Assembly (NCBI GenBank): GCA_014649555.1
Contig: BMTG01000022.1
Location: forward strand, 1-64,000
Origin: Streptomyces globisporus
Lineage (GTDB): Bacteria; Actinomycetota; Actinomycetes; Streptomycetales; Streptomycetaceae
Direction of reading: 5' to 3'
DNA length: 64,000 nt
The translations under genes and the position numbers were made by a program. This document shows positions 6,634-25,663 of the stretch, piece after piece. The notes beneath the pieces were generated by a model. The model had not been told where the DNA came from, searched no databases, and saw only the letters and a program-made list of their open reading frames with translations. Numbering within the stretch: the first letter of the stretch is position 1; every line of letters begins with the position of its first letter.

Positions 6634-7539
6634 TCAGGTGCAGGAGCCGAGTTCGCAGATGTCGTTGCGGTCGGTGGAGACCTTGAGGTCGTCGTACCAG
6701 ATGAAGCTGTTGTCGTTGTTGGGGGCGAAGGAGGGGGTCGCGCCGCCGGCGAAGCTGGAGAAGTAGGCGCGGTCGACCTGGTCGTTGTTGGTGACGAAGC
6801 GCAGGCCGGTCACCTTGGCGGCGGACTTGCCGTTGTAGAAGACCTCGATCTCGCCGTCGGGGTTGGCGTTGCCGCCGGTGACGGTGTTGACCTTGACGCG
6901 CTGGGCGACGTTGACCCACTGGTTCTTGGGCCAGTGGATGTCGGCGCCGTTGTTCTTGAGAACGGCGTAGTCGCCGTACTGGCCCGCGTGGCCCATGTGG
7001 TAGTAGTACACCGCCGCTTGGCCGTTGTTCTGCCGCCAGATCATGCGGGAGCTGAAGCCGTTGGTGCCGTCGCAGACCTGGCCGCCGGAGCAGGAGGCCC
7101 CGCCGGCGAGTCCGAGCCCGACCTTGCCGGCGTACTCGGTGGTGCCCCAGCTGAAGTCGCCGCTGAACTTCACCCAGAACGAGAGGTAGTACTCGCGCGC
7201 CTTGGTGAGGGCGAAGGGCGCCTGCGCTCCGGACTCCTCGGGGCCGATCTTGCCCTTGGGGTAGTGGATGCGCAGCGACTTCGAACCGCCGTGCGCGGGT
7301 GTCGTGTTGTCGATGCGGGCCCGGGTCTCCATGCCCTGCTGCCAGGGCGCGGTCCAGCCGTCGGTGGCCCACTGGCCGAGCGGGTAGCCGTTCCCGGCGG
7401 CGGGGCGTTCGAAGGTGTTGACCTTGTACGTCGGCGCCTTCGCCGCCGGGGCGGGTCCGGCGGTGGCCTGCGGGGCCAGGACGGCGGCGGGCACGAGCAG
7501 CGCGGCCGCGGCCGTCAGGAGCAGGGTTTTCGTCTTCAT
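6634..7539 (-). CDS. secreted polysaccharide lyase, PL14-like
   Basis: 301 aa. A Sec signal peptide is clear: MKTK, a hydrophobic core of about 20 residues, then a cut near ATAG/PAPA. The rest is a beta-jelly-roll with motifs SLRIHYPKG, EYYLSFWVKF, GKVGLGLAGG and NDNSFIWYDDLKV, matching the polysaccharide lyase 14-type family. In that family related enzymes cut glucuronan or alginate by beta-elimination; the polymer used here is unknown. Two Cys near the middle (GGASCSGGQVCDG) and two at the end (ICELGSCT) suggest disulphides. ATG with GAAGAGGAACG ribosome site. Middle gene of the minus-strand operon, presumably supplying fragments for the plus-strand importer. Confidence 0.8.
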   Translation of the reverse strand: MKTKTLLLTAAAALLVPAAVLAPQATAGPAPAAKAPTYKVNTFERPAAGNGYPLGQWATDGWTAPWQQGMETRARIDNTTPAHGGSKSLRIHYPKGKIGPEESGAQAPFALTKAREYYLSFWVKFSGDFSWGTTEYAGKVGLGLAGGASCSGGQVCDGTNGFSSRMIWRQNNGQAAVYYYHMGHAGQYGDYAVLKNNGADIHWPKNQWVNVAQRVKVNTVTGGNANPDGEIEVFYNGKSAAKVTGLRFVTNNDQVDRAYFSSFAGGATPSFAPNNDNSFIWYDDLKVSTDRNDICELGSCT

Positions 7540-7611
7540 CGTTCCTCTTCCCTGTGGGGTGGGGATGCCAGGTGGGGCGGGCGTCTCCCCGTGGGTGGGT
7601 GCGGGGTGATG

Positions 7612-8679
7612 TCAGGCGAGCCAGCGCGGCAGGGCGCCGGCGATGAACGCGTCCTCCTCTGCGAGCCAGGGGTAGGCGGTGTGCACGCGGTCGATCTCCT
7701 GCGCCTGTCCGGGCGAGAGACCTTCCGCGGGATCGAGGCACCAGGTGCCGGTCAACAGGCCCTGGCGGCGGAGCACTTCGTGGACGCCCGCGATGACTCC
7801 GGCGAAGGAGCCGCGTACGTCGTAGACGGCGGCGTTGGCGTCGGTGTCCCCGGCGAGCCGGGCCAGCGCCCGCTGCCGGGCCGCTTCGTCCCCGGCGTCG
7901 GCGGCGTGGACGTCGGCGAGCAGCCGGACGGCCGAGCGGGTGCAGACGGCCCAGTGGCCGAGCAACCCGCCGACGAAGCGGCGGACGGCCGGGCCTGTGG
8001 GGGTGGTCACGTGGTACGGGGTGAGGAGGTCGGCGACGATGGTGTCGTCGTTGCCCGTGTAGAGGGCGACCTCGGCTCCCCGGTCGGAGTCGGCGATGCC
8101 CTGGACCAGCTCCAGGGTGCGGTAGCGGTCGAAGGGGGCGGCCTTGACCGCGACGGTGGCCTCCTGGTCGGCGAGCGCCCGCCAGTAGGCGCGGGGCAGT
8201 TCGCGGCCGCCGACGGCTTCCTGGAGGTAGAAGCCGATGACGGGGAGGATCTCGCCGACGGCGGCGCTGCGGTCCAGGAGGTCGTCGAGCGTGGCGTGCG
8301 GGAGCCCGGCGGGCGAGACGAGGACGGCGTCGTAGCCCAGTGCGCGGGCGGTGGCAGCCTCCTCGACGGCCTGGCGGACGGGCCCGGCGACTCCGGCGAT
8401 CCGGAGGAAGGAACGGCTCGCTACGGCCGACGCGCTTTCCTCGGCGGCGAGTTCGAGGACGGGCCGGAACAGGGCGTGGTCGCGGATGGCGAACTGGGTG
8501 GTGTGCACGCCCACCGCCACTCCCCCGGCGCCCGCCTCCAGGTAGTAGCGGGTGAGCGCGCGTTGCCGCCGTTCGTCGAGGGTGCGGCCGGCGGTGAGGG
8601 CGAGGGGGTGGGCGGGGATGACGGTTCCCCGGTGGAGGAGTGCGGCGGTCGCCGGGGCCAGCGGGGCGGACGCGGACAT
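7612..8679 (-). CDS. dihydrodipicolinate synthase family aldolase
   Basis: 355 aa, a TIM-barrel class I aldolase of the DHDPS/NanA superfamily. Landmarks are an N-terminal HPLALT strand, LPVIGFYLQEAVGG and VAVKAAPFDRYRT, whose Lys is the likely Schiff-base residue. It is more divergent and longer than true DapA, so a sugar-acid or keto-acid substrate fits better than lysine synthesis. The ATG at 8679 overlaps the stop of the epimerase gene as TGATG, indicating coupling. In context it probably breaks down the modified sugar taken up by the locus; that is an inference. Confidence 0.8.
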   Translation of the reverse strand: MSASAPLAPATAALLHRGTVIPAHPLALTAGRTLDERRQRALTRYYLEAGAGGVAVGVHTTQFAIRDHALFRPVLELAAEESASAVASRSFLRIAGVAGPVRQAVEEAATARALGYDAVLVSPAGLPHATLDDLLDRSAAVGEILPVIGFYLQEAVGGRELPRAYWRALADQEATVAVKAAPFDRYRTLELVQGIADSDRGAEVALYTGNDDTIVADLLTPYHVTTPTGPAVRRFVGGLLGHWAVCTRSAVRLLADVHAADAGDEAARQRALARLAGDTDANAAVYDVRGSFAGVIAGVHEVLRRQGLLTGTWCLDPAEGLSPGQAQEIDRVHTAYPWLAEEDAFIAGALPRWLA

Positions 8680-9835: not shown

Positions 9836-10969
9836 ATGAAATCGGCAGAGAAGAAGGATTCATTCCTTCGCGGGCCCAAATACCTGCAAGTCGCCGAGCG
9901 GCTGCGCAGGGAGATCACGAGCGGCTCCTGGGCGCCCGGGGCGCAACTGCCCGTCGAGCGGGAGCTGGCGGACACGCTCGCGGTCAGCATCAACACGCTG
10001 CGCCGGGCGGTCAGCGTTCTCGTCGACGAGGGCATCGTGCAACGGCGGCAGGGGGCGGGCACGTTCGTGTCGCCGTCGCCCGAGGCCGCTCCTGCGGAGG
10101 CCGGTTCACCCAAGGGCCGCCGTCTGGTGGGCGTACTCGTCCCCTCGACGACGTACTACTATCCGCGGGTCGTCGACGGTATCCAGCGGGTGCTGCGGGA
10201 CGCCGGCGTCGGAGTCGTCCTCTCCTCCTCGAAGTACGACCTCGGCATCGAGCGCGACGAGGTGCGGGCGATGCTCGACAGCGGTGTGCAGGGGCTGCTG
10301 CTCGTGCCGAATCTTCATCTGCTGGACGAGCCGCAGGACTACGTGGACGACCTGCGACGCCTCACCGTGCCGTACGTCCTCGTGGAGCGACGTCCGCCCG
10401 CCCCGGCGCCGGACGATCCCACGTCCTACGTGGCCACGGATCATCCGGGCGGGGTCTGTCTGGCCGTACGTCATCTGCGCTCGCTCGGCCATGAGCGGAT
10501 CGGTCATCTGGGGCGGCTGCGCACCGGGACGTCGGACGCCGTGGCGCGCGGGTTCGACGAGGCCGCGGCGCTGCTGGGCGCCGATGTGGTGGAGGGCGCG
10601 GTGGCCCGCGCGGACATCTGGTCGCCCGAGGGCATCGCCGCCTACGCGCGGCACTGCGCCGACGCGGGCATCACAGCGGTGTTCTGCCACGGCGACCGGG
10701 ACGCGGCGGCTCTGGTGGTGGCCGCCCGGCGGCGCGGCTTGTCGGTCCCCGAAGACCTCGCCGTCGTCGCGTACGACGACGAGGTCACCGAAGTGGGCGA
10801 CATCCCGCTGACGGCGATCTCCCCGCCCAAGGAGGAGGTCGGAGCGCTTGCCGCCCAACTGCTCTTGAGCCGGATGGACTTCGGGTCCGGCGCGGTGTCC
10901 CACCGGGTCGATGTGCAGCCGCGCCTGATCGTCCGCGCGTCCTGCGGCGCGGCGCCGGGCGACCGCTGA
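9836..10969 (+). CDS. GntR/LacI hybrid transcriptional regulator
   Basis: 377 aa. Residues ~10-78 form a GntR winged helix (QVAERLRREITSGSWAPGAQ, LPVERELADTLAVSINTLRR, GAGTFV). Residues ~95-370 form a LacI/periplasmic-binding-protein sensor (GVLVPSTTYYYPRVVDGIQR, RIGHLGRL, AVVAYDDEV). This AraR-like architecture senses a sugar and releases DNA. Start: ATG 9836 fits a leaderless transcript; the in-frame TTG at 9800 is the first base triplet of the -35 box and is rejected as a start. Divergent from the minus operon and 51 bp ahead of the plus-strand catabolic genes, it most likely controls both. Confidence 0.88.
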   Translation: MKSAEKKDSFLRGPKYLQVAERLRREITSGSWAPGAQLPVERELADTLAVSINTLRRAVSVLVDEGIVQRRQGAGTFVSPSPEAAPAEAGSPKGRRLVGVLVPSTTYYYPRVVDGIQRVLRDAGVGVVLSSSKYDLGIERDEVRAMLDSGVQGLLLVPNLHLLDEPQDYVDDLRRLTVPYVLVERRPPAPAPDDPTSYVATDHPGGVCLAVRHLRSLGHERIGHLGRLRTGTSDAVARGFDEAAALLGADVVEGAVARADIWSPEGIAAYARHCADAGITAVFCHGDRDAAALVVAARRRGLSVPEDLAVVAYDDEVTEVGDIPLTAISPPKEEVGALAAQLLLSRMDFGSGAVSHRVDVQPRLIVRASCGAAPGDR

Positions 10970-11020
10970 CCCCGCTTCTCCCTTCTTCCGACCTGTTCCT
11001 TACCTCACCTGGAGATCCCC

Positions 11021-12043
11021 ATGCCCCCCGCCCCGTCCGCCGACCGGTTCCGTATCGGCGTCCTCGGCGCGGGAGGTGTCGGCGCCGCGCATGTGCACGC
11101 GGCCGCCGGCGCCCCCGACCACGAGATCGCGGCGATCTGCGACACCAACCGTCCCGCGGCCCGGGCACTCGCCGGGTCCGCCGGCGTACCGGCCTACAGC
11201 GACCACCGGGTCATGTTCGCCGAGGCCGGTCTCGACGCGGTCGTGATCGCCGCACCGCACGCGCTGCACGCCCCGATGACCGTCGAGGCCGCGCGGGCCG
11301 GACTCCACGTCCTGGTGGAGAAGCCGATGGCCACCACCACCGAGGACTGCGCCCTGATGACGGAGGCGTGCAAGGCGGCCGGTGTGCTGCTGGCGGTCGC
11401 CCATGTCATCCACTTCGACCCGGTCGTCCGCGAGACCCGGACCCTCATCGCCTCCGGGCGGTACGGGCAGCCACTGCTCATCACGCACCGGCGCTCCTCC
11501 CACTACGAGCCCGGCTCCCGCCCGCCGTGGTTCTTCGACCGGGCGGTCGCCGGAGGGGGCATCGTCCTCAACGTCGGCACCCACGGCCTCGACCGCATCC
11601 AGCTGTTCGCCGACTCCGCCGTCCGCCGCGTCAGCGGGGTCGTGCGGGGCCGTCCCGGACTGGAGGTGGAGACCGACGCCCTGGCGCTGGTGGAGCTCGA
11701 CAACGGCATCAACGCCAGCATCGCGCTCACCAGCCGGGGCATGCCGTACTTCGACGAGACCGAGGTCGTGCTCGACGAGGCGACCCTGCGCATATCCGCG
11801 ACCGAGGGACTCTTCGTGCTCCGCGACGGGCAGGCCACGCACCTCCTCAAGGCCGACCCGGGCCACCAACCACAGGCTTTCCGTGACCAGTTGGACGGGT
11901 TCGTGGCGGCGGCACGCGGCGGCCCCGGCCACTACGTCGACGGGGCGTACGGGCGCGGTGTCGTCGCCGCCGCGCTCGCCGTGTACGACTCCGCCGAGCG
12001 GGGACAACGGGTCGACGTGGCCGCCGAGCGGGTGGCCCCGTGA
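11021..12043 (+). CDS. Gfo/Idh/MocA family oxidoreductase
   Basis: 340 aa. The N-terminal NAD(P)-binding domain has RIGVLGAGGVGAAHVHA (residues ~10-26) and the family signature HVLVEKPMATTTEDC (~94-108), whose Lys is catalytic. The C-terminal alpha/beta domain has GGGIVLNVGTHGLDRI with the conserved His. Such enzymes oxidise or reduce sugars such as myo-inositol or glucose derivatives. ATG with GGAG at good spacing. Its stop overlaps the GTG of the next gene (GTGA), so it is the first gene of a coupled catabolic operon. Confidence 0.9.
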   Translation: MPPAPSADRFRIGVLGAGGVGAAHVHAAAGAPDHEIAAICDTNRPAARALAGSAGVPAYSDHRVMFAEAGLDAVVIAAPHALHAPMTVEAARAGLHVLVEKPMATTTEDCALMTEACKAAGVLLAVAHVIHFDPVVRETRTLIASGRYGQPLLITHRRSSHYEPGSRPPWFFDRAVAGGGIVLNVGTHGLDRIQLFADSAVRRVSGVVRGRPGLEVETDALALVELDNGINASIALTSRGMPYFDETEVVLDEATLRISATEGLFVLRDGQATHLLKADPGHQPQAFRDQLDGFVAAARGGPGHYVDGAYGRGVVAAALAVYDSAERGQRVDVAAERVAP

Positions 12044-12816
12044 ACCCCCGGGCGTTCAGCACGCTGGGCTGCCCAGGTGCCGGCCTGGACGAGGTCGTCC
12101 GGCTGGCCCGTACCGGCCCCTGCACCGGCATCGAACTCCGTTGTTCCGATGACCAGTTGGTGCATCCGGAGTTGGATTCGGACGAGGCGGACCGCATCGC
12201 GGGAGCGCTGCGCCGGGCCGGTCTCGCGGTGCCGGTGCTCGCCTCGTACGTCCAGGTCGCCGCCGACGGGCCGGACGTCGTCGAGCAGTTGGCCCGGCAT
12301 ATCGCCCTCGCGGCCCGGCTCGGCGCGGGCCAGGTGCGGGTCTTCGGCGGCGGGGCCGGGCTGCCGAAGGGGCGGTGGGAGCGGGCGGTGCGTCATCTGG
12401 CCGCGGCCGCGCCTCTCGCCGCCGCGGCCGGGGTCGGCATCGCGCTGGAGACCCACGACGAGTTCCTGACGGGCGCCGAGGTGGCCGAGGTGCTGGAGGC
12501 CGTCGACTCTCCCGCAGTGGGGGCCGTGTGGGACGCGGTCAACCCGTGGCGGGCGGGCGAGAGCCCGGAGCGCACCGCCGACCTGCTGGGGCCCTGGCTC
12601 CGCCACGTACAGCTCAAGGACGTCGCTTCGCCCACCGATCTGCGGCCGGTCCTGCCCGGCCGGGGTGTACTGCCGCTCGGCGATGTGCTGGGGCAGCTCC
12701 GCCGTCTCGGTTACGACGGCTGGATCAGCCTCGAATGGGAGCGCACCTGGTACCCCGAGGCGGCTCCGCTCGCCGAGGTGCTCCCCGCCTTCCACCGGGT
12801 CCTCGACGCCGCCTGA
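12040..12816 (+). CDS. sugar phosphate isomerase/epimerase (xylose isomerase-like TIM barrel)
   Basis: 258 aa single TIM barrel of the AP-endonuclease-2/xylose-isomerase-like superfamily. Metal-ligand positions are visible: GIALETHDEF (Glu and His), VGAVWDAVNPW (Asp), HVQLKDV (His) and WISLEWERTW (Glu). This pattern fits divalent-metal sugar isomerases and epimerases. GTG start overlaps the stop of the dehydrogenase gene by four bases. With that gene it probably converts the imported sugar to a central intermediate. Exact substrate unknown. Confidence 0.87.
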   Translation: MNPRAFSTLGCPGAGLDEVVRLARTGPCTGIELRCSDDQLVHPELDSDEADRIAGALRRAGLAVPVLASYVQVAADGPDVVEQLARHIALAARLGAGQVRVFGGGAGLPKGRWERAVRHLAAAAPLAAAAGVGIALETHDEFLTGAEVAEVLEAVDSPAVGAVWDAVNPWRAGESPERTADLLGPWLRHVQLKDVASPTDLRPVLPGRGVLPLGDVLGQLRRLGYDGWISLEWERTWYPEAAPLAEVLPAFHRVLDAA

Positions 12817-12879
12817 CGGCGCCCGTATCCCCGTCTCCGTCCTCATCTCCCTTCCCACTCCCACGAAAAGGGGATCCCC

Positions 12880-12936
12880 ATGCGTTCTTCCTGTCCCATC
12901 GCCACCGTTCCCGCCCCGGGTGTCCGTCATGGCTAG
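12880..12936 (+). CDS. putative 18-aa leader peptide
   Basis: A short frame, MRSSCPIATVPAPGVRHG, begins at an ATG preceded by GAAAAGGGG and ends at a TAG (12934-12936) just past the ATG of the binding-protein gene (12929). The binding-protein start itself has no clear ribosome site, so translation of this peptide may deliver ribosomes to it. The palindrome GGGGATCCCC (12870-12879) sits between the ribosome site and the ATG. It may be chance; conservation in relatives is the test. Confidence 0.35.
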   Translation: MRSSCPIATVPAPGVRHG

Positions 12937-14248
12937 CCCGGCGCTCAGCAGACGGGGCCTGCTCTCCGCCGGGCTGTGGACCGCCCTGGCCGGCGTCACC
13001 GCCACCGCGTGCGGGGGTGGCTCCGATGCCGGGCCGAGCGGCCCCGACGGCCCGCTGACCCTGTGGTCGGCACTGCGCGGCACGGACACCCTGGTCGCGG
13101 CCTGGAACGAGCTGCACCCGGAGGAGCCCGTCGACTTCTCCCCGATGACGTCCGGGCTCGCGGGCGGCAACGCGAAGCTGTCGAACGCCGCGCGGGCCGG
13201 GAACGCGCCGGACATCGTGACGCTCGTCGACGCCGATCTGCCGTCCTTCGCCATCGACGGCGTCTGTGCGGACGTGACCGATCTCGTTACGCCCCGGCTA
13301 CGCGAACGGCTCGGTCCGCAGGCGTGGACCAACGGCGTGCTGGACGGCCGGACGTACGGCATTCCGGTCGACCTCGGCCCGATGCTGTTCGCCTACCGCG
13401 AGGACATCCTGACTCGGCACCGTATCGAACCACCCACCACCTGGGAGGAGTTCGAGGAGGCGGCCCGTCGGCTGAAGCGGGACGCGGGCGTCGATCTCGC
13501 GACCTTCCACCCCAACGCGTACAACGTGCTGGCCGGGCACACCATGCAGAGCGGCGGGCAGTGGTTCGCCATCGAGGACGACGCCTGGGTGCTGGACTTC
13601 CTCGGCGAACCGAGCCGGCGGGTCGCGGAGTTCTGGCAGGGCCTGGTCGACGAGAAGGTGTTGATGTTCGCCCCCGGCTCCAGCCAGCAGTGGCTGTCCG
13701 CGCTCGCCCGGGGCGCGGTCGCCTCGCATCTCGTGGGGCCGTGGGGGCTCGCCGCCCTCGTCCGCTCCGTGCCGGGCACCTCTGGGCGCTGGCGGGTGGC
13801 CCCGCTGCCCCGCTGGGAGGGCGGCGAGGACGTCGTGGGGACCGACGGGGTCTCCGTGCACGCCATCACCGCCGACAGCGACAAGAAGGAACGCGCGATG
13901 CGGTTCCTGGAGTGGATGACCACGGCGCCCGAGGCGATCACCGCCCGCCTCTCCGGCGGCCGCTCCAGCATCCTGCCGGCAGACGCCGGTCTGGTGGCCA
14001 ACGCCTCCCGCGAGTTCGACACGGCGTTCTACGGCGGCCAGGACGTCTACCGACTCGTGGAGCAGCAGGCCGCGTTGCTGCGCACCGGCTGGACGTGGGG
14101 TCCACGCATGCAGGCGACGGCGACCTCGCTGCACCAGGGGCTGGCCCGGCTGGAGTACGGCACGACCATCGCCGACGCGCTCCGCACCGCCCAATCCGAG
14201 ACGCTGCCCGACCTGCGCAGCCTGGGTCTTTCTGTGAGGCAAGCATGA
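12929..14248 (+). CDS. ABC transporter sugar-binding lipoprotein
   Basis: 439 aa family 1 extracellular solute-binding protein. The N-terminus has a twin-arginine-like SRRGLL, a hydrophobic stretch and a lipobox ending TATAC (Cys about residue 27), so it is exported and lipid-anchored. Body motifs VTLVDADLPSFAIDGVC, GRTYGIPVDLGPMLFAYR and WEEFEEAARRLK are typical of sugar-binding components. The start could also be the GTG three codons upstream (12920). The stop overlaps the permease ATG as ATGA. It probably captures an oligosaccharide released by the secreted lyase or chitinase-like enzymes; the ligand is not known. Confidence 0.88.
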   Translation: MASPALSRRGLLSAGLWTALAGVTATACGGGSDAGPSGPDGPLTLWSALRGTDTLVAAWNELHPEEPVDFSPMTSGLAGGNAKLSNAARAGNAPDIVTLVDADLPSFAIDGVCADVTDLVTPRLRERLGPQAWTNGVLDGRTYGIPVDLGPMLFAYREDILTRHRIEPPTTWEEFEEAARRLKRDAGVDLATFHPNAYNVLAGHTMQSGGQWFAIEDDAWVLDFLGEPSRRVAEFWQGLVDEKVLMFAPGSSQQWLSALARGAVASHLVGPWGLAALVRSVPGTSGRWRVAPLPRWEGGEDVVGTDGVSVHAITADSDKKERAMRFLEWMTTAPEAITARLSGGRSSILPADAGLVANASREFDTAFYGGQDVYRLVEQQAALLRTGWTWGPRMQATATSLHQGLARLEYGTTIADALRTAQSETLPDLRSLGLSVRQA

Positions 14249-15234
14249 GCACCGCCACCGAACGTATGAGAACCGCCACCGAAGGCATGAGCACCGACAA
14301 CGACTCCCGCCGTGCGCGCCGCCCTCAGCGGCTGGCCGTCTCCACCCTGCTCGGTCCGTTCGGGGTTCTGCTGGTCGCGGTGTTCGTCGTCCCGACCCTG
14401 TACGCCGTCTACCTGAGCTTCTTCTCGACCTCGCACAGCGGCCTGGGCTTCGGCAACGCCCGCACGGCCTTCGCCGGGCTGCGCAACTACACCGCCGTCC
14501 TGTCCGACCCGAGCTTCGTCCGGGGCGTCGGGATCACCTTGCTCTACGCGGTGGTCTTCATCCCGCTGGTCCTGGTGGGCGCTCTCGCCCTCGCGCTGCT
14601 CTTCGACTCGGGGCTGATCCGGGCCCGGCAGCTCACCCAGACGGTGCTGTTCGTACCGCACGCGGTGCCGGGCATCATCGCCACGGTCATCTGGCTGTAC
14701 CTCTACACCCCGGGGATCTCCCCCGTGCTGGACGCGCTCCAGGGCATCGACATCACGGTGAACTTCCTGGGCCTGACGATGATCGTGCCGTCGCTGGTGA
14801 ACATCGCGCTGTGGAGCGGACTCGGCTACACCGCGGTCATCTTCTTCGCCGCGCTCAAGGCCATCCCCCGCGAGCTGATCGAGGCCGCCGCGATGGACGG
14901 GGCGGGCCCGGTGCGCACCGCGCTGACCATCAAGGTTCCGCTGGTGCGCTCCACGCTCTCGACGGTCGCGATCTTCACGACGATCGGCGCACTCCAGTTG
15001 TTCACCGAGCCGATGCTGCTGGCGAAGGCCACCCCGCTGATCAGCCCGCGCTACACGCCCAACATGTACATCTTCGACGCGGCGTTCACCCGGAACAACT
15101 ACGGCCTGGCCTCCGCCGCCTCCGTCCTCCTCCTGATCGTCTGCTGTGCCCTGTCCTTCGCCGTGACCCGTGGTTCGGCCGGTTCGGCGCGACGGAAGAC
15201 ACGTGTCACCTCTTCGAGAAAGGCCCGCCCGTGA
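14245..15234 (+). CDS. ABC sugar transporter permease, MalF-type
   Basis: 329 aa inner-membrane subunit with about six helices. The binding-protein-dependent transport signature (EAA loop) reads ELIEAAAMDGAGPVRTALTI around residues 211-230 and docks the ATPase. The first 17 codons are built from a 21-base unit repeated about 2.3 times, each copy starting with ATG (14245, 14266, 14287), so three starts are possible. I keep the first because of its ATGA overlap with the binding-protein stop. No ATPase gene is present in this locus, so a shared MsiK-type ATPase elsewhere is expected. Confidence 0.9.
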   Translation: MSTATERMRTATEGMSTDNDSRRARRPQRLAVSTLLGPFGVLLVAVFVVPTLYAVYLSFFSTSHSGLGFGNARTAFAGLRNYTAVLSDPSFVRGVGITLLYAVVFIPLVLVGALALALLFDSGLIRARQLTQTVLFVPHAVPGIIATVIWLYLYTPGISPVLDALQGIDITVNFLGLTMIVPSLVNIALWSGLGYTAVIFFAALKAIPRELIEAAAMDGAGPVRTALTIKVPLVRSTLSTVAIFTTIGALQLFTEPMLLAKATPLISPRYTPNMYIFDAAFTRNNYGLASAASVLLLIVCCALSFAVTRGSAGSARRKTRVTSSRKARP

Positions 15235-16157
15235 GTACGTCGGTCCGCACCACCCCACCGGCCCCCACCGCTCCGGCCGGCTCCTCGCCCGCGACCGGGC
15301 GTCCGCCGGGCCGCCCGCGCCGGACCGGCTGGTACGGCCCGGCGGCGGCCAACCTCGTGGTCGGGGTGAGCGCCCTCTACGCGCTCCTGCCGCTGCTGTG
15401 GCTGCTCGTCGCCTCCGCGGTGGACTCCGAGGCGCTGTTCGCCTCCGACTTCTTCGACCCATCACACTTCGCGCTGTTCGACAACATCGGGGCGCTGCTC
15501 GCCCAGGACGACGGGGCGTATCTGCGCTGGTACGGCAACAGCCTGCTGTACGCGGTCGGCGGCGCGGCAGTCGGGGCGCTGATCAGCACCGCCGCCGGAT
15601 ACGTCTTCGACAAGTTCGAGTTCACCGGGAAGCGTCCGCTGTTCGCGCTGATCCTGATCTCCGTCATGGTCCCGGCGACCGTCCTCGCGCTGCCGATGTA
15701 TCTGCTCGCCTCCGACCTGGGCCTCGCCAACACGGTGTGGTCGGTCCTGATCCCGGTGCTGTTCAACCCCTTCGGCGTCTATCTGGCCCGGATGTTCTCC
15801 GCCTCCTACGTGCCGGACGAGGTGCTGGAGGCCGCACGGGTGGACGGGGCGAACGAGCTGCGGAGCTTCTTCTCGGTCGGGCTCAGGATGATCGCCCCGG
15901 GCTATGTGACGATCTTCCTGTTCCAGCTCACCGCGATCTGGAACAACTTCTTCCTGCCGCTCGTGATGCTCTCCGACGAGTCGCTGTATCCGCTCAGCCT
16001 CGGCCTGTACAGCTGGAACGCGGCCGCCCCCATCAACCCCGACTACTACCCGTTGATGGTGATCGGTTCGCTGCTGGCGCTGTTGCCGCTGGTGATCGCG
16101 TTCCTGCTGCTCCAGCGGTACTGGCGGTCGGGGCTCACGGCGGGCAGCGTGAAGTAG
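15231..16157 (+). CDS. ABC sugar transporter permease, MalG-type
   Basis: 308 aa, six predicted membrane helices, with the EAA loop VLEAARVDGANELRSFF around residues 197-213. It pairs with the preceding permease to form the channel. GTG start overlaps the previous stop (GTGA at 15231-15234). A Pro/Thr-rich cytoplasmic N-terminus of about 35 residues precedes the first helix. Last gene of the plus-strand operon. The absence of an ATP-binding subunit is normal for Streptomyces carbohydrate importers of this class. Confidence 0.9.
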   Translation: MSTSVRTTPPAPTAPAGSSPATGRPPGRPRRTGWYGPAAANLVVGVSALYALLPLLWLLVASAVDSEALFASDFFDPSHFALFDNIGALLAQDDGAYLRWYGNSLLYAVGGAAVGALISTAAGYVFDKFEFTGKRPLFALILISVMVPATVLALPMYLLASDLGLANTVWSVLIPVLFNPFGVYLARMFSASYVPDEVLEAARVDGANELRSFFSVGLRMIAPGYVTIFLFQLTAIWNNFFLPLVMLSDESLYPLSLGLYSWNAAAPINPDYYPLMVIGSLLALLPLVIAFLLLQRYWRSGLTAGSVK

Positions 16158-18949: not shown

Positions 18950-20407
18950 TCAGCTCAGCATCAGGGCGCTGTCCCAGGAGGTGACCGGTGCACGGCCGGT
19001 GGCGTACGTGTGCAGGGCCAGGGCGATGCCCGCGGCCCCCTCCAGGAAGCCGGGGCGGTCGAGTGGGCGCTTCGCGAGCGCGTGGGCGTATCGGAAGCCG
19101 AACGGCGACCCGGGGTCGAATCCGTCCAGCGCACGGGCCGCCAAGCGGTCGGCGGTGGCGTGGAGTTCCGGGTCGCCGGTGTCCTCGGCGGTGCGCAGCA
19201 CGATCTGCAGGAGGCCGGCCCAGCCGTGGCACAGCGCGGAGTCACGGATCGACCCGTCGCCCGCCACCGCCAGCGCCCCGCGCAGCGCCGCCTCCGCGTC
19301 AGCTCGCCAGTCCGGCCGGTCCAGGGCGGTTCCGGCGAGGTGGACGGCGCGGGCCGCACCGGCCGCTCCGTAGCACCAGGAGTCCCGTCCGCGCTCCGGC
19401 GGCTCCCCCTTCTCGATGCGCTCCCGCGACATCAGGTGCGGCCAGCGCGGGCCCGCCTCGTCACGGGTGCGCAGGCGGGTCAGCAGCGCCATGATCCGTT
19501 CGACGGCCTCGTCCTGGCGGGCCACCCGGACCCCGGCCCGCCAGGCGAGGGCGAGGAGGGCCAGCGGGCCGGGGACACCGTGGGCGAGGCCGAGGTTGAC
19601 GTGCTCGGGGAGCCCGTGGTCCAGCCCGTCGGTGACCCACCACGCGGGCAGCCGGGAGCCGTGCCGGGTGATGTCGTCGGCAGTGGCCACGGCCACGAGG
19701 GAGGTGAGCACCTCGGTCAGCGCGGCCCCGGCCGTCTGCCGCGCCTCCTGCCCCTCGGCCGCCAGGTGGCGGGCCAGCAGATAGCGGCCGATCCCGGCGG
19801 TTCCGGCGAGGACGTCGTAGCGGCTCCACGCTCCGGCGGGGTCCCCGGCGCGGGTCCGCTCCAGGTCGGCGCGGGCGCGGGTGCGGACCCGGTCGAGGAT
19901 GTGCCGGTCCAGTCCGGCGAGCATCGCGGTGTATCCGCCGGAGCCGACGGCCGTCGTGTGCCCGGCGTACGCGAGCGCCACCATGCCGCCGAACAGCGAC
20001 TGGGGCACCGGCCTGATCCCGACCGCGAGCCCTGCTGACAGGTGTGCGTGGGCCCGGTGGCGCAGGGCCGGGTCCGTGACGGCCAACTCGGCGTACAGCA
20101 GGGCGACTCCGGGGTGTCCGTCGGAGAGCTGGAGCGGCTCCCACACGGGTTGGGGGTCGCCCGGGTAGTGCATCAGGTTGTCCGGCACACCCGCGATCCG
20201 GGCCACCCGCTCGGGGTCGGCCAGCCGGTCCACGACCTCGGCGACGACCCGGGCGGCGGCCTCCCGGTGCACCGGCTCGCGGGCGTTATCGGCGGCAGCC
20301 TCCCGGTGCGCCGGCTCGGACGACGAGCGGGCGTTCCCGGCGGCGGCCTCCCGGCCGGCCTGCTCGCGGGGCGAGCGGTCAGTGGGCGTCGACGCGGATG
20401 ACGGCAC
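18950..20407 (-). CDS. stand-alone LanC-like lanthionine cyclase
   Basis: 485 aa. The cyclase barrel shows GLAHGVPGPLALL (~residue 277 on), DSWCYGAAG (Cys ~345) and LCHGWAG (Cys ~393, His ~394). These give the catalytic His and the three Zn ligands of LanC, so the active site looks intact. The enzyme would add Cys thiols to dehydrated Ser/Thr to close thioether rings. I pick the GTG at 20407, which has CTGGAGAG in front and overlaps the end of the cupin gene by 29 bases. The N-terminal ~55 residues contain three REAAA repeats absent from typical LanC. Last gene of the RiPP operon. Confidence 0.88.
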   Translation of the reverse strand: MPSSASTPTDRSPREQAGREAAAGNARSSSEPAHREAAADNAREPVHREAAARVVAEVVDRLADPERVARIAGVPDNLMHYPGDPQPVWEPLQLSDGHPGVALLYAELAVTDPALRHRAHAHLSAGLAVGIRPVPQSLFGGMVALAYAGHTTAVGSGGYTAMLAGLDRHILDRVRTRARADLERTRAGDPAGAWSRYDVLAGTAGIGRYLLARHLAAEGQEARQTAGAALTEVLTSLVAVATADDITRHGSRLPAWWVTDGLDHGLPEHVNLGLAHGVPGPLALLALAWRAGVRVARQDEAVERIMALLTRLRTRDEAGPRWPHLMSRERIEKGEPPERGRDSWCYGAAGAARAVHLAGTALDRPDWRADAEAALRGALAVAGDGSIRDSALCHGWAGLLQIVLRTAEDTGDPELHATADRLAARALDGFDPGSPFGFRYAHALAKRPLDRPGFLEGAAGIALALHTYATGRAPVTSWDSALMLS

Positions 20408-21590
20408 GGAAGCTCTCCAGTTCCTCCAGCAGGCTGCGGACCTCGGCGCGGCCGGTCTCGGGCAGTTCGCCGACCCGTACCGCCTCCCCGGCGTCCAGTC
20501 GGCGCAGCACCGCGAGGGCTTCGGCAGTGGTCGCGACGGAGGTGACATGGCCACCCGTGGCCCAGCGGGGCGGGGCCTCGCCGGGTGCGGGCAGCAGCGG
20601 GGCACAGCCGCGTACGGGGGTGTCGTCGTCCAGGGGGCGGGGCTCGGCGGGCGGTTCGGTCGGCCAGAAGCCGCCCGCCGTCCTGACCCGCAGGGCGAGC
20701 TCGGTGGCCCGGTCGGCGAACCGGTCCTCGTCCAGGCGGGCCGCGAAGGCGTCCACCGCGTCGGCGAGGGCCGTGGGCAGTTCGGCGGCGAGGCGGCCGC
20801 CCGGGGCGGCGTCCGGGGTGAACAGCGGGGCGGACGCGGCGGGCCGGGTGCCCCGGAACAGGTCCTTGATCTCGTAGTAGGGCCGGTGCTCGCGGCGCGG
20901 GATGCCCACGTTGACGCTGGTCGCCGGGGCGTCCCCGGTGCTCTCCCCCACGTGGTAGTAGCGCGAGGGCCAGTAGAGCAGGTCGCCCGGTTCGACCTCG
21001 GCGACGAACGAGGAGGCCAGGTAGGGCTGGTAGTCCAGCACCGTGTGCACCGGATCCGACCACGGCCGCTCGGCCCAGAACCGCATCCGCTTGGTGCCGC
21101 GTACGCAGAACATGAAGGTGGCGAAGCGGTCCTGGTGCACGCCGACCGGGCTGTGTTCGTAGGAGCCGTGGAACATCGTGGAGCCCGCGCTGTGCGTGGG
21201 CTGGCCGACCCGCTCCCACAGTCCGGCGTAGAACCGCCGCGCCCGGTCCCAGAGCGGGTGGGAGAAGGAGTGGAAGCGGTGGACGACGAGGGCGTAGCGC
21301 TGTCCGCCCAGCCGGTCGGCCATGCGCTGTTCGTAGCCGTCGAACGATTCGTCGGAGAGTTCGGGCAGATAGTCGTGGGGCCGGGTCTGCTGCCGTCGCC
21401 GTACGAGGAACTGGAGGTTGCTTGGTACGGCGAGCGGGTGGGGCGGGCGGCTGCCGAGCACGGCGGCCCGGAAGACCTCGGGCTCGGCGAACGGGACGGC
21501 GTCGACGGCCTTGTAGAGCACGGGCTGCCGGTCCCAGAACCGCTCGGTGAAGGTGTCCCAGTCGAAGGACTTCTCGACGGTCAGCGTCAT
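20379..21590 (-). CDS. JmjC/cupin oxygenase-like protein, intact iron site
   Basis: 403 aa, related to the cupin (JmjC-like, ROXA/YcfD-type) Fe(II)/2-oxoglutarate hydroxylases. The iron-binding pattern is present: VGVHQDRFATF gives His152 and Asp154, and YYHVGES gives His213. ROXA-type relatives hydroxylate side chains of ribosomal proteins; inside a RiPP operon a precursor peptide is the more likely target. The C-terminal ~120 residues form a separate helical part as in ROXA enzymes. ATG start overlaps the stop of the second cupin gene (ATGA, 21587-21590). Which residue it modifies is unknown. Confidence 0.82.
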   Translation of the reverse strand: MTLTVEKSFDWDTFTERFWDRQPVLYKAVDAVPFAEPEVFRAAVLGSRPPHPLAVPSNLQFLVRRRQQTRPHDYLPELSDESFDGYEQRMADRLGGQRYALVVHRFHSFSHPLWDRARRFYAGLWERVGQPTHSAGSTMFHGSYEHSPVGVHQDRFATFMFCVRGTKRMRFWAERPWSDPVHTVLDYQPYLASSFVAEVEPGDLLYWPSRYYHVGESTGDAPATSVNVGIPRREHRPYYEIKDLFRGTRPAASAPLFTPDAAPGGRLAAELPTALADAVDAFAARLDEDRFADRATELALRVRTAGGFWPTEPPAEPRPLDDDTPVRGCAPLLPAPGEAPPRWATGGHVTSVATTAEALAVLRRLDAGEAVRVGELPETGRAEVRSLLEELESFRAVIRVDAH

Positions 21591-22861
21591 CGTGTCGCCT
21601 CCTCGGCCAGGTCGATGCCGCGCAGCCGGTACAGCTTGTCGAGCAGCGCGAGCACCGTCACCGCGTTCCGGTCGTCGTCGCCCGCGGCCAGCGCGCGGCA
21701 GACCTCGTCGGCCCCGGTCTCCTCCCCGTCGCCGAGTGCGGCGTACACCCGGTCGCCCGCCGCTCGCGGCAGGGTGAAGACGTTCCCCTCCACCGCCCAG
21801 ACCTCGTGGGCGGGCCCGTCGGGCATCCGGACGATCTCTCCGGTGCGGCGGAAGCGGGTGGACCGGGTGACGGTGACGCCTTCGCGGGGCACCGGGATCG
21901 GTTCGAGTCCGGCGGCGGAGCGCAGCGCGGCCCACCGGATCCGCAGGGTCCTGCGCAGGTGTTCGCCGTCCACGACCGTACGCAGGTCGTGACCGAGGCC
22001 GGTCAGCCGGGGCAGCACCCCGTCCTCGTCGTCGATGCCGGTCCCGGGGCCGAACGAAAAGTACGGCACGGTCTCGTCGTTGCCCTGCCCGGCGTGCACC
22101 AGGTCCGCGAGCAGGTCCCGCAGGGCGGTGAACGGCAGGGTCCGGTCGACGGGGATCCGCAGGCGCAGGGCGACGCACCGGTTCCGGTAGGTGTCCACGT
22201 GCCGTTGGTCGCCGGGCCAGTACAGCAGTTCCCCGGCCCCCGCGCTGAGGGTGCGTACCCCGGGCACCGCCCGGTCCGGGTCGGCGATGTCCGGGGGCGG
22301 GGGCCCGCCGCGCTCGTCCCACAGCCGTACGTCCATCCGGCCGCGCAGCACCCAGGTCAGCGCCGCGTGGGTGGGGGCCTCGGTCGCGCCGACGTGCTGG
22401 GTGAACCGGTCGCCGGTCAGCACCTCGGCGACGACGGGGAGGTTGGGCCAGCCGACCTGCCGCCACAGCCCGCTGATGGTGTCCCGTACGGCGGACCACA
22501 GCGCGTGGTCCAGGAGGAGCGGCTGGCGCACCGTCAGCAGGTAGCCCTGGCGACCGCTGTCGGAGTCGAGCCGGTCGAGGTAGGCGTCCAGGCTCGGATC
22601 GGTGGTGTCCGGCAGGAGGGTCCCGGGGGCCCGCAGCCAGCCGTCGCCGACGAGGAACCGGACGTCGGGCATCACCCAGAACCGGGTGCCGGCGCGGAAG
22701 GGTGCGCACGAGGCGACGTTCAGGGGGTGGACCGCTTCGAGGCCGAACGGGGGCCGTGCGTGCAGCCGGACGGGCCGCCGGTCCCAGTAGCGCTGCCCGA
22801 ACAGCTCCCAGTCGACACCGTCGGGCGGCGTCCGCCGTGTTTCGGGGGCGAGGGTGCTCAT
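21587..22861 (-). CDS. JmjC/cupin paralogue lacking the HxD motif
   Basis: 424 aa, clearly homologous to the next gene along its length (FGQRYWDRRPV versus FTERFWDRQPV; GELLYWPGDQRHVD versus GDLLYWPSRYYHVG). The segment equivalent to VGVHQDRFAT reads VGATEAPTHAA, so the iron-binding His-x-Asp is missing while the distal His (~221) remains. It may be a structural partner or substrate-binding subunit of the active paralogue, or a cupin with altered chemistry. ATG at 22861 overlaps the stop of the synthetase gene (ATGA). The pair probably arose by tandem duplication. Confidence 0.8.
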   Translation of the reverse strand: MSTLAPETRRTPPDGVDWELFGQRYWDRRPVRLHARPPFGLEAVHPLNVASCAPFRAGTRFWVMPDVRFLVGDGWLRAPGTLLPDTTDPSLDAYLDRLDSDSGRQGYLLTVRQPLLLDHALWSAVRDTISGLWRQVGWPNLPVVAEVLTGDRFTQHVGATEAPTHAALTWVLRGRMDVRLWDERGGPPPPDIADPDRAVPGVRTLSAGAGELLYWPGDQRHVDTYRNRCVALRLRIPVDRTLPFTALRDLLADLVHAGQGNDETVPYFSFGPGTGIDDEDGVLPRLTGLGHDLRTVVDGEHLRRTLRIRWAALRSAAGLEPIPVPREGVTVTRSTRFRRTGEIVRMPDGPAHEVWAVEGNVFTLPRAAGDRVYAALGDGEETGADEVCRALAAGDDDRNAVTVLALLDKLYRLRGIDLAEEATR

Positions 22862-25347
22862 GTCGCTTCCCTTCCGGCCGGGGTCCGCCCGGCGTCCCCC
22901 AGGGGGAAGCGCCGCCGGATCCGGTCCGTGTGATCGGCCAGGGGTTCCATGCCCAGCGCGGCGCGCCGCCGGTCGACCTGCTCCGGCTCCTCGATCGGCC
23001 AGGGCACCAGCTCGCCCGCGACGGGCTCGAACTTGGTCCCGTAGACCTGCGGGCGCCCTTCGTCGACGCACAACTCATCGGTGAGATAGGCGACTTCACG
23101 CCATGGCAGATCGCGGCGCTCCGCCGCGTCCCGCATCAGCTCCAGGCAGTGCCGGCGGAAGTCGAGGTGTTCCCTGGCGTGTTGTACGAGGCGGCTCGCG
23201 GAGGCGGCCGCCTCCGCGCCGACGAGGGCGTGTCCCGGCCACCCGTGGTCGGCCACGACCGTGGTGAGCCAGGCGATTCCGGCGTCGGTCAGTTCCCGCA
23301 GCCGGCGTTCCGCGCTCTCGTCGCGCATGCCGCCGTCGGCCCACGGCGTCCGGATCGTGCCGTCGAGCCGGTCCAGCCGCAGCAGTCTGCGGCGGATCTC
23401 CCCGGCGGGCGCGGGCTCGACGGGGGCCTCGGGCGCGTCGGCCGGGTCGACGCTCAGCCGCACCTTCTGCCGGTCCCAGAGGTAGGTGATCCGCCGTCCG
23501 GCCTCCGGCCAGTCGAAGGAGACCCGGCCTTCGGAGGGGCTCTGCAGATGCAGCCGCACGCCGAGCGAGGCGTCGGTGACGACGTGGTCGGTCACATCGT
23601 CGAAGACATGCTCCACGGCGTCCCGCAGGGCCACCCCGAGACCGGCGAGGGTGAGGTTCTCTCCCGCCAGCAGGCGGGGCAGCGGGGGCCAGCCGCCCTC
23701 GGGTTCCGGCCGGGCCGCGACTGGGGACGTGCCGAACGGCCCGGGCGGGGGGTCGACGCTGAGCACCGGGCCGCCCTCCAGCGAGCGGACGAAGTAGGGC
23801 ACGTCCATGCGCCGCAGCTGATCCGTCTCGGGCCGGTCGAAGTGGACGTCGGGTTCGGCGGGGCGGGGTGCGGCCCCGCCCCCGGACAGCCAGCGGGGCA
23901 CGAGCGCGTCGAAGTACCGGAACGTGGGCTGCCGCAGGACCCTGACGTAGTGGCCGGCGGTGGCGGCCGCCAGGAAGTCCCGGATGGCGGGCCGTTGCCG
24001 GCACATCAGGGTCCAGGCGTCGAACATGCCGCGCAGCATGGCCGGGAGGTAGGGCCCGTAGCCGGTCCGCCCGTCGGTGTCGGCGACGACGTTCCTGGTC
24101 TCGTCCCGGGCGAAGGAGACCCGGCGGCGGTGCAGGCTCAGCGCGCCCGTCGGCCGAGCGCTCCAGACCACCGGCGGGCCCTCGGCGCTGCACCAGCGGG
24201 CGGTGCGTTCCAGGCCGACGTGGTGCTGGTCGATCTCGGCGGTCGCGTCGTGCAGGAGGCCGGTGTCGTAGAGGCGCGGGACCCGGCAGAAGTAGATCTC
24301 CAGGTCGATCGGGTGGAGCAGCGGCTCCGGGTCGCCGGGTCTGCTCCCGGTGACCACGTTGCCGCCGATCATGTCGGTGATCCCGAAGGCGAACATGGCG
24401 GCGGTCAGCGAACCGGTCCGGTGCCAGAACCGCCCCGACTCCGCCGGGGTCAGCCGGGTACCGGACAGCTCCCACGGCCCGGACGTACGGATCGGCCCCC
24501 ACTGGGCGGGCGGTTCGATCCACTCCTGCCAGAGGTAGCCGGGCTCGGCCCCGGGCCAGCAGGACAGCACGGGGAGCCGGATTCCGCCGGACGCGGCGGG
24601 CGCCTGGTTGAGCAGGTCGAACAGCGAGGCGGGCGAAGCTGTCGCGCCGGTTCCGGCGGCCTGGGTGAACAGCAGCTCGCCGGAGGCCGGACGGGGTTTG
24701 TAGGCGATCCGGCCGCCGCCCGCGCAGTCGAGGCGCAGGACGCGCTGGCGTCCGTTGTGGGTCTCCTCGCCGTGGGTCCAGAGTCCGACGACCGGCCCCC
24801 GGAACGCCGGTTCGTCGGGCCAGCAGGCGTCCATGTCCCGGAGCAACCGGTCGAGAAAGAGCGTCAGGAATTCCTGGCAGCGCACCGCCCACTCGACCAC
24901 CCGGTCGCGGGCGTAGTGCGGTCTCCCGGCAGCACAGGCGACGAATGCCTCGGATACCACGGGCCCGAACAGGTCGGCGTTCGTGATGTCGAGTATTTCG
25001 GGAGAAATAACGGACGAATAGCGCTGCCGGGAATGGGCGCACCAGCCGTCGAGCCGCTCCCACAGCTCCAGCAGCGGCGCGAACCGCCGGTCGCGGAGAG
25101 CGTGTTCGATCATCCGCGCGTCGCTCTCGCCGCCGAGCAGCCGGTCGACCGCGACGGTCCCCTCGGGGCCCGCGGCGACCACGGGCGGGAACATGCCGCC
25201 GGCCTCGCCCTTGCGGACGGCGTCGACGATCCGCCGTGCCACTGGAAGTAGTTGGGGAGTTGCGGCCCGGTCAGAACCCATTCCGGAGGCTTCACCCGAG
25301 GCTCGCATCTCCCAGAGCGCCCGGGGGTCCAGGGGGGAATCCGGCAC
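22858..25347 (-). CDS. LanM-type dehydratase domain fused to DUF6624-like domain
   Basis: 829 aa. Residues ~90-550 resemble the DUF4135 dehydratase half of class II lanthipeptide synthetases: THGEETHNGRQRVL and GRIAYKPRP (~191-220) and GITDMIGGNVVT followed by HPIDLEIYF (~320-360) are the kinase-like phosphate-transfer motifs. The LanC half of LanM is absent. Instead the last ~150 residues (HGWPGHALVG, VQHAREH, YLTDELCVDEGRPQVYGT) resemble DUF6624. It would phosphorylate and eliminate Ser/Thr in the precursor, leaving ring closure to the separate LanC. GTG at 25347 has GGAGG 6 bases before it. It follows the precursor after a hairpin. Confidence 0.83.
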   Translation of the reverse strand: MPDSPLDPRALWEMRASGEASGMGSDRAATPQLLPVARRIVDAVRKGEAGGMFPPVVAAGPEGTVAVDRLLGGESDARMIEHALRDRRFAPLLELWERLDGWCAHSRQRYSSVISPEILDITNADLFGPVVSEAFVACAAGRPHYARDRVVEWAVRCQEFLTLFLDRLLRDMDACWPDEPAFRGPVVGLWTHGEETHNGRQRVLRLDCAGGGRIAYKPRPASGELLFTQAAGTGATASPASLFDLLNQAPAASGGIRLPVLSCWPGAEPGYLWQEWIEPPAQWGPIRTSGPWELSGTRLTPAESGRFWHRTGSLTAAMFAFGITDMIGGNVVTGSRPGDPEPLLHPIDLEIYFCRVPRLYDTGLLHDATAEIDQHHVGLERTARWCSAEGPPVVWSARPTGALSLHRRRVSFARDETRNVVADTDGRTGYGPYLPAMLRGMFDAWTLMCRQRPAIRDFLAAATAGHYVRVLRQPTFRYFDALVPRWLSGGGAAPRPAEPDVHFDRPETDQLRRMDVPYFVRSLEGGPVLSVDPPPGPFGTSPVAARPEPEGGWPPLPRLLAGENLTLAGLGVALRDAVEHVFDDVTDHVVTDASLGVRLHLQSPSEGRVSFDWPEAGRRITYLWDRQKVRLSVDPADAPEAPVEPAPAGEIRRRLLRLDRLDGTIRTPWADGGMRDESAERRLRELTDAGIAWLTTVVADHGWPGHALVGAEAAASASRLVQHAREHLDFRRHCLELMRDAAERRDLPWREVAYLTDELCVDEGRPQVYGTKFEPVAGELVPWPIEEPEQVDRRRAALGMEPLADHTDRIRRRFPLGDAGRTPAGREAT

Positions 25348-25387
25348 AGCAGCCTCCGACTCGTCACCGATGGACGGACGGCGCGAC

Positions 25388-25419
25388 CGGGTGGCGCCGG
25401 ACCAGGCCGGCGCCACCCG
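25388..25419 (-). terminator. attenuating hairpin between precursor and synthetase
   Basis: A perfect 13-base stem (arms 25388-25400 and 25407-25419, core GGGTGGCGCCGG) with a 6-base loop sits 8 bases after the precursor stop and about 40 before the synthetase start. Partial termination here would give more precursor than enzyme mRNA, a known pattern in lantibiotic operons. Confidence 0.75.
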
Positions 25420-25426
25420 CCACGCA

Positions 25427-25594
25427 TCAACAGCAGTAGACGCCCGCGCACGTACCACAGGCGGTGCCGCTGCCCGAGTTCGTCGGGGAAGCGAGCGGCG
25501 GAATTTCCTGTTCCAGATCGCCGATCACCAGATCGAATACCTCATCGGCGTTCCGGTCCGTTCCGCTCTGGACCTTTTCCTCAACTGCCTGCAT
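25427..25594 (-). CDS. lanthipeptide-like RiPP precursor peptide
   Basis: 55 aa. The ATG at 25594 has the strongest ribosome site of the region (GGGAGGAGG). The leader is acidic and helical (residues ~1-33, with DEVFDLVIGDLEQE), then PPLA and a core of about 20 residues, SPTNSGSGTACGTCAGVYCC, holding six Ser/Thr and four Cys, with two Cys at the very end. There is no double-Gly cleavage site, and no protease or transporter gene lies in the operon. All this fits a lanthionine precursor made by the downstream dehydratase and cyclase. The exact leader/core cut and ring pattern are not known. Confidence 0.85.
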   Translation of the reverse strand: MQAVEEKVQSGTDRNADEVFDLVIGDLEQEIPPLASPTNSGSGTACGTCAGVYCC

Positions 25595-25634
25595 GAATAT
25601 CCTCCTCCCGTACTGGCCAATTGATCCGCCACTC

Positions 25635-25663
25635 AGTAGAACAATGCGACATGCACCTGTCAA
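25635..25663 (-). promoter_or_regulatory. lanthipeptide operon promoter
   Basis: On the minus strand, -35 TTGACA (25663-25658), 17 bases, -10 TCTACT (25640-25635), giving a transcript start about 35 bases before the precursor ATG. A consensus -35 is unusual in this GC-rich DNA. No clear operator repeat is seen, and no regulator gene is in the operon. Confidence 0.7.

Follow-up and report, generated by a model that had tools for sequence, protein, structure and literature searches.

A putative peptide-modification operon of Streptomyces globisporus in which a stand-alone LanC accompanies a LanM-type dehydratase-DUF6624 fusion and two JmjC/cupin paralogues

We analyzed a window of 64,000 nucleotides from Streptomyces globisporus (contig BMTG01000022.1, positions 1 to 64,000) and identified a five-gene operon on the minus strand (25663–18950). 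It consists of a precursor peptide gene, an RNA hairpin, a gene for a dehydratase fused to a DUF6624 domain, the genes for two JmjC/cupin paralogues, CupA and CupB, and a gene for LanC (Table 1). Every part of this set, hairpin included, was found where a preliminary description of the same DNA, made from the sequence alone, had placed it. The dehydratase/CupA and CupA/CupB junctions are overlaps of 4 bases, and the CupB and LanC genes overlap by 29 bases if GTG 20407 is the correct LanC start.

Table 1. Features of the operon (positions in the window).
Feature	Position (strand)	Description	Details
Probable promoter	25663-25635 (-)	-35 TTGACA 25663-25658, 17-nt spacer	-10-like TCTACT 25640-25635
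Ribosome-binding site of precursor gene	25609-25601 (-)	GGGAGGAGG	read from sequence
Precursor gene	25594-25427 (-)	ATG start, 55 aa, Cys-rich	leader motif FDLVIGDLEQEIP, C-terminal part PTNSGSGTACGTCAGVYCC
RNA hairpin between precursor and enzyme genes	25426-25381 (-)	46 nt, -39.8 kcal/mol	no T-run
Dehydratase gene	25347-22858 (-)	GTG start, 829 aa	DUF4135 ~24876-23791, DUF6624 ~23391-22930
CupA gene	22861-21587 (-)	424 aa, pseudo-JmjC/cupin	iron-binding HxD lost
CupB gene	21590-20379 (-)	403 aa, JmjC/cupin	HxD..H intact: H152, D154, H213
LanC gene	20407-18950 (-)	stand-alone, 485 aa	from likeliest (putative) start GTG 20407

The 829-aa protein contains both a DUF4135 domain (E 6e-16) and a DUF6624 domain (E 3e-14) and has no LANC_like match (Pfam). 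Foldseek searches of the PDB with an AlphaFold model of the whole dehydratase (28 sequences; predicted local distance difference test score, pLDDT, 88.7) returned LicM2 (E 3.5e-11) and CylM (E 1.7e-10) and nothing else at E <0.001. Pfam and Foldseek therefore agree with the preliminary description in finding a LanM-like dehydratase without a cyclase domain, fused to DUF6624, and on the same two results a hidden LanC domain in this protein was rejected. A PDB sequence profile search with the dehydratase alignment gave one ribosomal match at chance level. In a comparison of hidden Markov models, the dehydratase family matched a full-length LanM encoded by the window genome with a probability of 98.7%. 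Against the full-length LanM profile TIGR03897 the dehydratase scored 19.2 bits and LanC 62.5 bits, both under the cut-off of 304. LanC is matched by Pfam LANC_like (2e-45) and has the zinc ligands C, C and H; the zinc-ligand motifs occur in all 18 copies longer than 400 aa (18 of 20 copies, omitting L049 and L081, where LanC is broken across several frames). This bears out the free LanC first described and identifies it as zinc-type.

The operon proteins were also compared with the domain sets of the other lanthipeptide classes. No LanB family match, the mark of class I, was found among the five proteins (Pfam, NCBIfam). The lyase and Ser/Thr-kinase Pfam domains of class III/IV enzymes are absent from the operon, and the LanL and LanKC profiles touch LanC alone, far under cut-off (NCBIfam). 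No Pfam or NCBIfam match suggested class V (LanK/LanX/LanY) or class VI (LanKCb), for which dedicated models were not run, and neither YcaO nor a class III-type cyclase domain is present (Pfam).

To place the operon among its relatives, a genome collection was scanned with two peptide patterns. The 137 stretches that matched gave 44 loci which, with the window and a further locus of the same genus (L035), make up the main sample of 46 loci; because the scan catches just genomes with either pattern, these loci are a sample of the family. The genome counts that follow all include the genome of the window. Within Streptomyces, 6 of 199 genomes have full-length matches; 78 of 199 have any match, and the other 72 are short and mostly to the DUF6624 part. 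Full-length matches are also present in 3 of 394 genomes of the class and in 14 of 293 of the order (E 1e-10), two of the latter weak at ~44 bits. In the family around Luteimonas 10 of 297 genomes matched, from which nine additional Lysobacteraceae loci were retrieved, each encoding the dehydratase and both cupins besides one or more precursors. The core operon without LanC spans two phyla (Actinomycetota and, through the Lysobacteraceae, a second). Two Luteimonas loci have the altered order precursor, CupA, dehydratase, CupB. Spread of the dehydratase via phages was considered and rejected, as the phage collection searched held no dehydratase match.

Catalytic residues were counted in 39 of the 46 dehydratases (L050, L072, L073, L077, L081, L082 and L083, which are partial, frameshifted or diverged, were omitted). 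The equivalents of CylM K274, D347, N352, D364, H254, R506 and T512, seven of nine catalytic positions, are retained in 39/39, and in nine of the nine further Lysobacteraceae dehydratases except at T512 (8 Thr, 1 Ser). D252, H254, R506 and T512 matter for elimination in CylM (PMC4550811; statements on cited papers refer to their accessible portions). Residue retention and the fold match together make it likely that the dehydratase both phosphorylates and eliminates, perhaps with altered kinetics.

The two cupin paralogues differ in their metal-binding residues. CupB has Pfam JmjC_2 (4e-7) and Cupin_8 matches, and in the PDB it is related to arginine hydroxylases of ribosomal protein L16 (E 1e-4). 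A tblastn search shows CupA and CupB to be paralogues: with the window CupA as query, the CupB region of L032 is matched at E 3.6e-21. Neither the window CupA nor that of L076 has a Pfam or NCBIfam match, and that of L035 has a weak Cupin_2 match (E 0.004). We aligned 42 of 44 CupA sequences (the short L050 and L077 were omitted) and 42 of 42 CupB sequences. The equivalents of H152, D154 and H213, the Fe(II) triad, are retained in all 42 CupB proteins, while HxD is missing at the aligned place in all 42 CupA proteins, 26 of which keep the last His. The nine Lysobacteraceae pairs show the same split between intact and degenerate copies (9/9), and a degenerate CupA is always accompanied by an intact CupB where the contig allows. 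The preliminary description spoke of cupin oxygenases in the plural; with the iron triad confined to CupB, only this protein is a predicted Fe(II)/2-oxoglutarate hydroxylase. Since intact and degenerate copies are kept together across phyla, CupA and CupB may form a heteromeric enzyme. Folds like the RiPP recognition element (RiPP, ribosomally synthesized and post-translationally modified peptide) have been recorded in fusion with JmjC domains (PMC12710340), and by analogy a leader-binding winged-helix part in the cupin proteins is possible.

Precursors were searched with a profile of 15 seed peptides, and as most seeds come from the analyzed loci themselves the find rate is generous. A precursor open reading frame (ORF) is present in 44 of the 46 loci, the exceptions being L073, whose contig begins inside the dehydratase, and L083, a diverged relative without DUF6624. 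The nine Lysobacteraceae loci hold 13 precursor ORFs at E <=0.01, 4 of them weaker than 1e-4, for a total of 61 ORFs across 53 loci. The precursor is thus kept beside the enzymes in relatives (44/46 loci and all nine Lysobacteraceae loci), as the preliminary description would have it. Most precursors have the conserved leader motif DLVIG[DE]LE, and all 61 share a C-terminal unit [ST]C-x(2-5)-YC. In 59/61 the form [ST]C-x(2,4)-YC lies <=4 residues from the C-terminus; L062 and L077 have five intervening residues. This ending is kept across two phyla though the leaders differ considerably. The Ser/Thr preceding the Cys of the unit is the sole Ser/Thr in the last 20 residues of L063 and L075. The last 26 residues contain 4 Cys in 21/21 precursors of the LanC group (20 type A loci plus L081, counting L050, whose LanC region falls off the contig) and 2 Cys in 38/38 non-LanC precursors counted, with 2 likewise in L062 and L077. 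Two precursor genes with different cores precede a single enzyme set in L059, L061, L069, L071, L112, L114, L115 and L118; the paired cores of L061 are TCGLHLYC and TCVRIYC.

LanC is found in only part of the family. A LanC match lies 3' of CupB in 20 of the 46 loci (the window, L040–L049, L051–L058 and L081). Another 20 extend at least 2.4 kb beyond CupB without a match to the window LanC at E 1e-3, and six are not assessable (L050, L063, L073, L077 and L082 at contig ends, and the diverged L083). The nine Lysobacteraceae loci gave no match to this family's LanC profile, L120 being cut at CupB. In a dehydratase tree of 50 rows (L072, L073, L081, L082 and L083 omitted) the 19 LanC rows cluster with the truncated L050, and this single group of 20 has full support and is embedded in LanC-less rows; the row nearest to the window is L049 (S. 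globisporus, 97% identity). The CupB tree (51 rows) has the same LanC group, with the truncated L073 inside. Both trees are midpoint-rooted, and L050 and L073 are labelled as lacking LanC merely through cut contigs. On the simplest reading of these sequence comparisons, a single actinobacterial lineage took up LanC, possibly on two occasions. The preliminary description had called the system a split synthetase; the distribution and the trees suggest instead that LanC was added to a system usually without it.

The distribution of LanC and the Cys counts indicate that the shared [ST]C-x(2-5)-YC unit is probably formed without LanC, whose task would be to close additional rings. We read the operon as one for RiPP biosynthesis, with a cyclase-independent core to which LanC was added later, and put the probability of this reading at roughly 0.55. 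The modifying enzymes would recognize the precursor leader, and the dehydratase would phosphorylate and then eliminate the Ser/Thr that immediately precedes the unit's first Cys, yielding dehydroalanine or dehydrobutyrine. CupB, scaffolded by the pseudoenzyme CupA, would hydroxylate one of the unit's invariant residues, with Tyr the likeliest. In LanC-less systems the distal Cys would add to the dehydrated residue, spontaneously or aided by DUF6624, and in the window branch LanC would close one or two more thioether rings via an extra Thr-Ala-Cys segment and an extra C-terminal Cys. For processing, export and immunity the system would depend on genes outside the operon. Dehydration of Ser/Thr, hydroxylation by CupB, ring closure and the part played by LanC are inferred. 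Lanthionine or methyllanthionine in the window product is plausible, as the Ser/Thr and Cys core and the zinc-type LanC fit it.

The preliminary description proposed a distinct lanthipeptide subtype. What stands of this is a RiPP operon with a LanM-type dehydratase and a free LanC; given that the LanC-less form is equally common in the sample (20 vs 20 loci, with six that could not be assessed) and occurs in two phyla, the term may fit just the LanC-bearing branch. We tentatively suggest, at somewhat less than even odds, that the family is a RiPP class of its own, non-lanthipeptide in its basic form. The dehydratase-DUF6624 protein and an obligate pair of pseudo- and active JmjC proteins would turn the [ST]C-x(2-5)-YC end into a new cross-linked or oxidized unit, for example a thioether ring bearing hydroxytyrosine or dehydrotyrosine, without a cyclase, in Actinomycetota and Lysobacteraceae, with LanC and two extra Cys grafted on later in one branch.

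Several observations weigh against our main reading, a cyclase-independent core to which LanC was added later. Two catalytic positions of the dehydratase are altered: the equivalent of CylM H349 is non-His in 39/39 (I in 25, G in 9, five others) and in 9/9 Lysobacteraceae copies, and that of D252 is Glu in 39/39 and 9/9, changes that could affect phosphorylation or elimination. CylM H349A is slow, yet reaches near-complete modification on long incubation (PMC4550811). The frameshifted L081 dehydratase, outside these counts, keeps His at the H349 position. L081 also carries LanC but sits on its own long branch outside the LanC group in the CupB tree, and with midpoint roots this allows two gains, or losses. 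LanC-like domains occur elsewhere in the LanC-less genomes examined (four in G189, one each in G582 and G583, nine in G584 and four in G585), where they might help in trans; those of G582 and G583 lie in frames of 966 and 965 aa. The CupA of L060 has an HRD six residues ahead of the aligned place, which we took for chance, and motif loss in this protein is not beyond doubt. The target of hydroxylation was guessed from conservation. Finally, the DUF6624 model has no convincing match in the PDB (Foldseek, best E 1.5), and we know of no activity for any DUF6624 member.

A first alternative is that a class II LanM came apart into a dehydratase and LanC, and that the product is a hydroxylated lanthipeptide cyclized by LanC. 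A LanM-type dehydratase and a zinc-type LanC do share one operon, and among NCBIfam models LanM gives LanC its best score (62.5 bits), with LanL not far behind (59.3 bits). We consider such a split unlikely, as LanC is absent from 20 loci with at least 2.4 kb past CupB and from the nine Lysobacteraceae loci (one contig-cut), its rows nest inside LanC-less rows in the trees, and the domain fused to the dehydratase in all of these is DUF6624, not LanC.

The conservation of DUF6624 bears on a second alternative, in which this domain takes the place of LanC in the LanC-less systems, either closing the rings or serving as a second catalytic domain of some other kind. The domain alone is predicted with a pLDDT of 89.3. 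We compared 11 of 28 fused copies with 24 other Streptomyces copies, mostly short frames of their own. H723, D757, Q767 and R795 are identical in all of these, and at least 22 of the 24 other copies share W703, P704, Q722, H723, D757, Q767, G770, T771 and R795. These recurring residues suggest a common active or binding site. DUF6624 has been considered a possible undiscovered biosynthetic enzyme class and is frequent in graspetide groups 18, 20, 23 and 42 (PMC13097080). Its invariant residues, its recurrence in these four groups and its place at the C-terminal end, where LanM carries the cyclase domain, would suit such a role. The domain is, however, retained in the LanC-bearing branch as well and has neither a detectable fold relative nor a known activity, and we regard this role as rather improbable. 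Elsewhere in the window genome (G000), DUF6624-like and LanC-like matches lie ~13 kb apart, at C3:185158-185562 and C3:198327-199349.

A third alternative, a phospeptin-like system whose DUF4135 domain just phosphorylates and whose final product keeps the phosphate, has a precedent in EmbM, where a single LanM-dehydration-like domain phosphorylates without elimination (PMC9259500), and would agree with the altered H349 and D252 positions, but it is very unlikely, since the R506, T512 and H254 equivalents are retained in 39/39, CylM T512A fails in elimination while H349A gives nearly full modification (PMC4550811), and an added LanC would presumably have no substrate without dehydration.

We compared the operon with known systems. 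As in class II LanM (CylM 5DZT, LicM2 6ST5), there is a DUF4135 kinase-fold dehydration domain with seven of nine catalytic positions and a leader followed by a Ser/Thr/Cys core; here DUF6624 replaces the fused LanC, the H349 and D252 equivalents are changed, and the score is 19 bits against the 304-bit NCBIfam cut-off. Phospeptin EmbM likewise has a dehydration-type domain without a cyclase and a small precursor, but its dehydration site is mutated and it makes a phosphopeptide, whereas here R506, T512 and H254 are kept and JmjC partners are present (PMC9259500). CcaM, the LanMbC enzyme of the dehydrazoles, is also a divergent DUF4135 dehydratase in a RiPP cluster with a product without lanthionine rings; it carries a class III-type cyclase domain in the same chain and acts together with YcaO, both of which this operon lacks (PMC10676384). 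The JmjC-type Fe(II)/2-oxoglutarate triad of CupB occurs in the RiPP JmjC hydroxylase BipG and in the L16 arginine hydroxylases, but here CupB pairs with a degenerate CupA and a LanM-type dehydratase (PMC12707348). The graspetide clusters share DUF6624 in a RiPP setting, group 18 with oxygenases too, but are graspetide synthetase systems, and the accessible portions of the paper make no mention of a fusion to a LanM-type dehydratase (PMC13097080).

In the literature searched, which was mostly open-access, we found no publication on DUF4135 together with JmjC and none with the leader and core peptide strings of this family. The architecture is not named in the accessible portions of the literature on lanthipeptides with cupins, RiPPs with JmjC or SmaO/SmaX, or class VI and split LanM, and lanthipeptides and DUF6624 are named together in PMC13097080 alone. 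In keeping with the preliminary description, no published family with this exact architecture turned up, and the operon core appears to represent a family of modified peptides not described before. Closely related systems with and without LanC provide a natural comparison in which the contribution of LanC is directly testable. The enigmatic DUF6624, a recurring domain of RiPP clusters, here shares a chain with a dehydratase of predictable target residue. RiPP biosynthesis gains a conserved partnership of two JmjC proteins, one intact and one degenerate, and the fixed [ST]C..YC ending eases mining of the family and predicts the modified residues.

The TTGACA promoter of the preliminary description is probable. 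TTGAC is present upstream in 19/20 type A loci, with L057 as the exception and L052 and L055 having a TTGACG variant; the spacer and upstream bases are variable, and a scan for the strict consensus promoter gave 0 matches. The hairpin 3' of the precursor is retained in 19/20 type A loci. The exception is L049 (Streptomyces globisporus 1912-4Crt), in which an apparent short duplication (~420-480) replaces it. The 93-nt hairpin stretch of the window is of moderate stability compared with shuffled sequences (z -2.2, 7/200 shuffles equally good). The hairpin may be a site of partial termination or processing, so that precursor outnumbers enzymes.

The operon is flanked by genes for a ceramidase, on the opposite strand, and a 5'-nucleotidase (Pfam), which seem unrelated to it. 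Flanking ORFs of the 46 loci were clustered using a crude ORF caller, leaving out the nine later Lysobacteraceae loci. Beyond operon genes and antisense ORFs, nearly all clusters are limited to the LanC group, which we read as synteny among close relatives. No conserved transporter or protease was recognized in clusters of >=4 loci; as these carry no family annotation, a shared exporter could have been missed. An ORF near the L079 operon (7148-8389, minus strand) belongs to a cluster common to four loci, one of the LanC group and three others. In the Luteimonas loci L076 and L078 (~6683-8640) the operon lies directly 3' of a nuoN-like gene, which we take to belong to respiratory complex I.

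The dehydratase, CupA and LanC frames of L081 (Fodinicola feengrottensis, 9899-15920) are broken by apparent frameshifts, either assembly errors or pseudogenes. L083 (Stackebrandtia albiflava, 9893-11566, plus strand) encodes a 557-aa dehydratase relative with YRPQ replacing YKPR and no DUF6624 or cupins seen nearby in the analyses run; it is possibly a degenerate descendant of the dehydratase. Similar DNA, covering 87% of a 5.2-kb query at 81% identity, lies at 7444200-7448765 of NZ_LT559118.1 (Nonomuraea gerenzanensis), an 11.85-Mb circular record filed as a plasmid in PLSDB, with no annotated feature beneath it.

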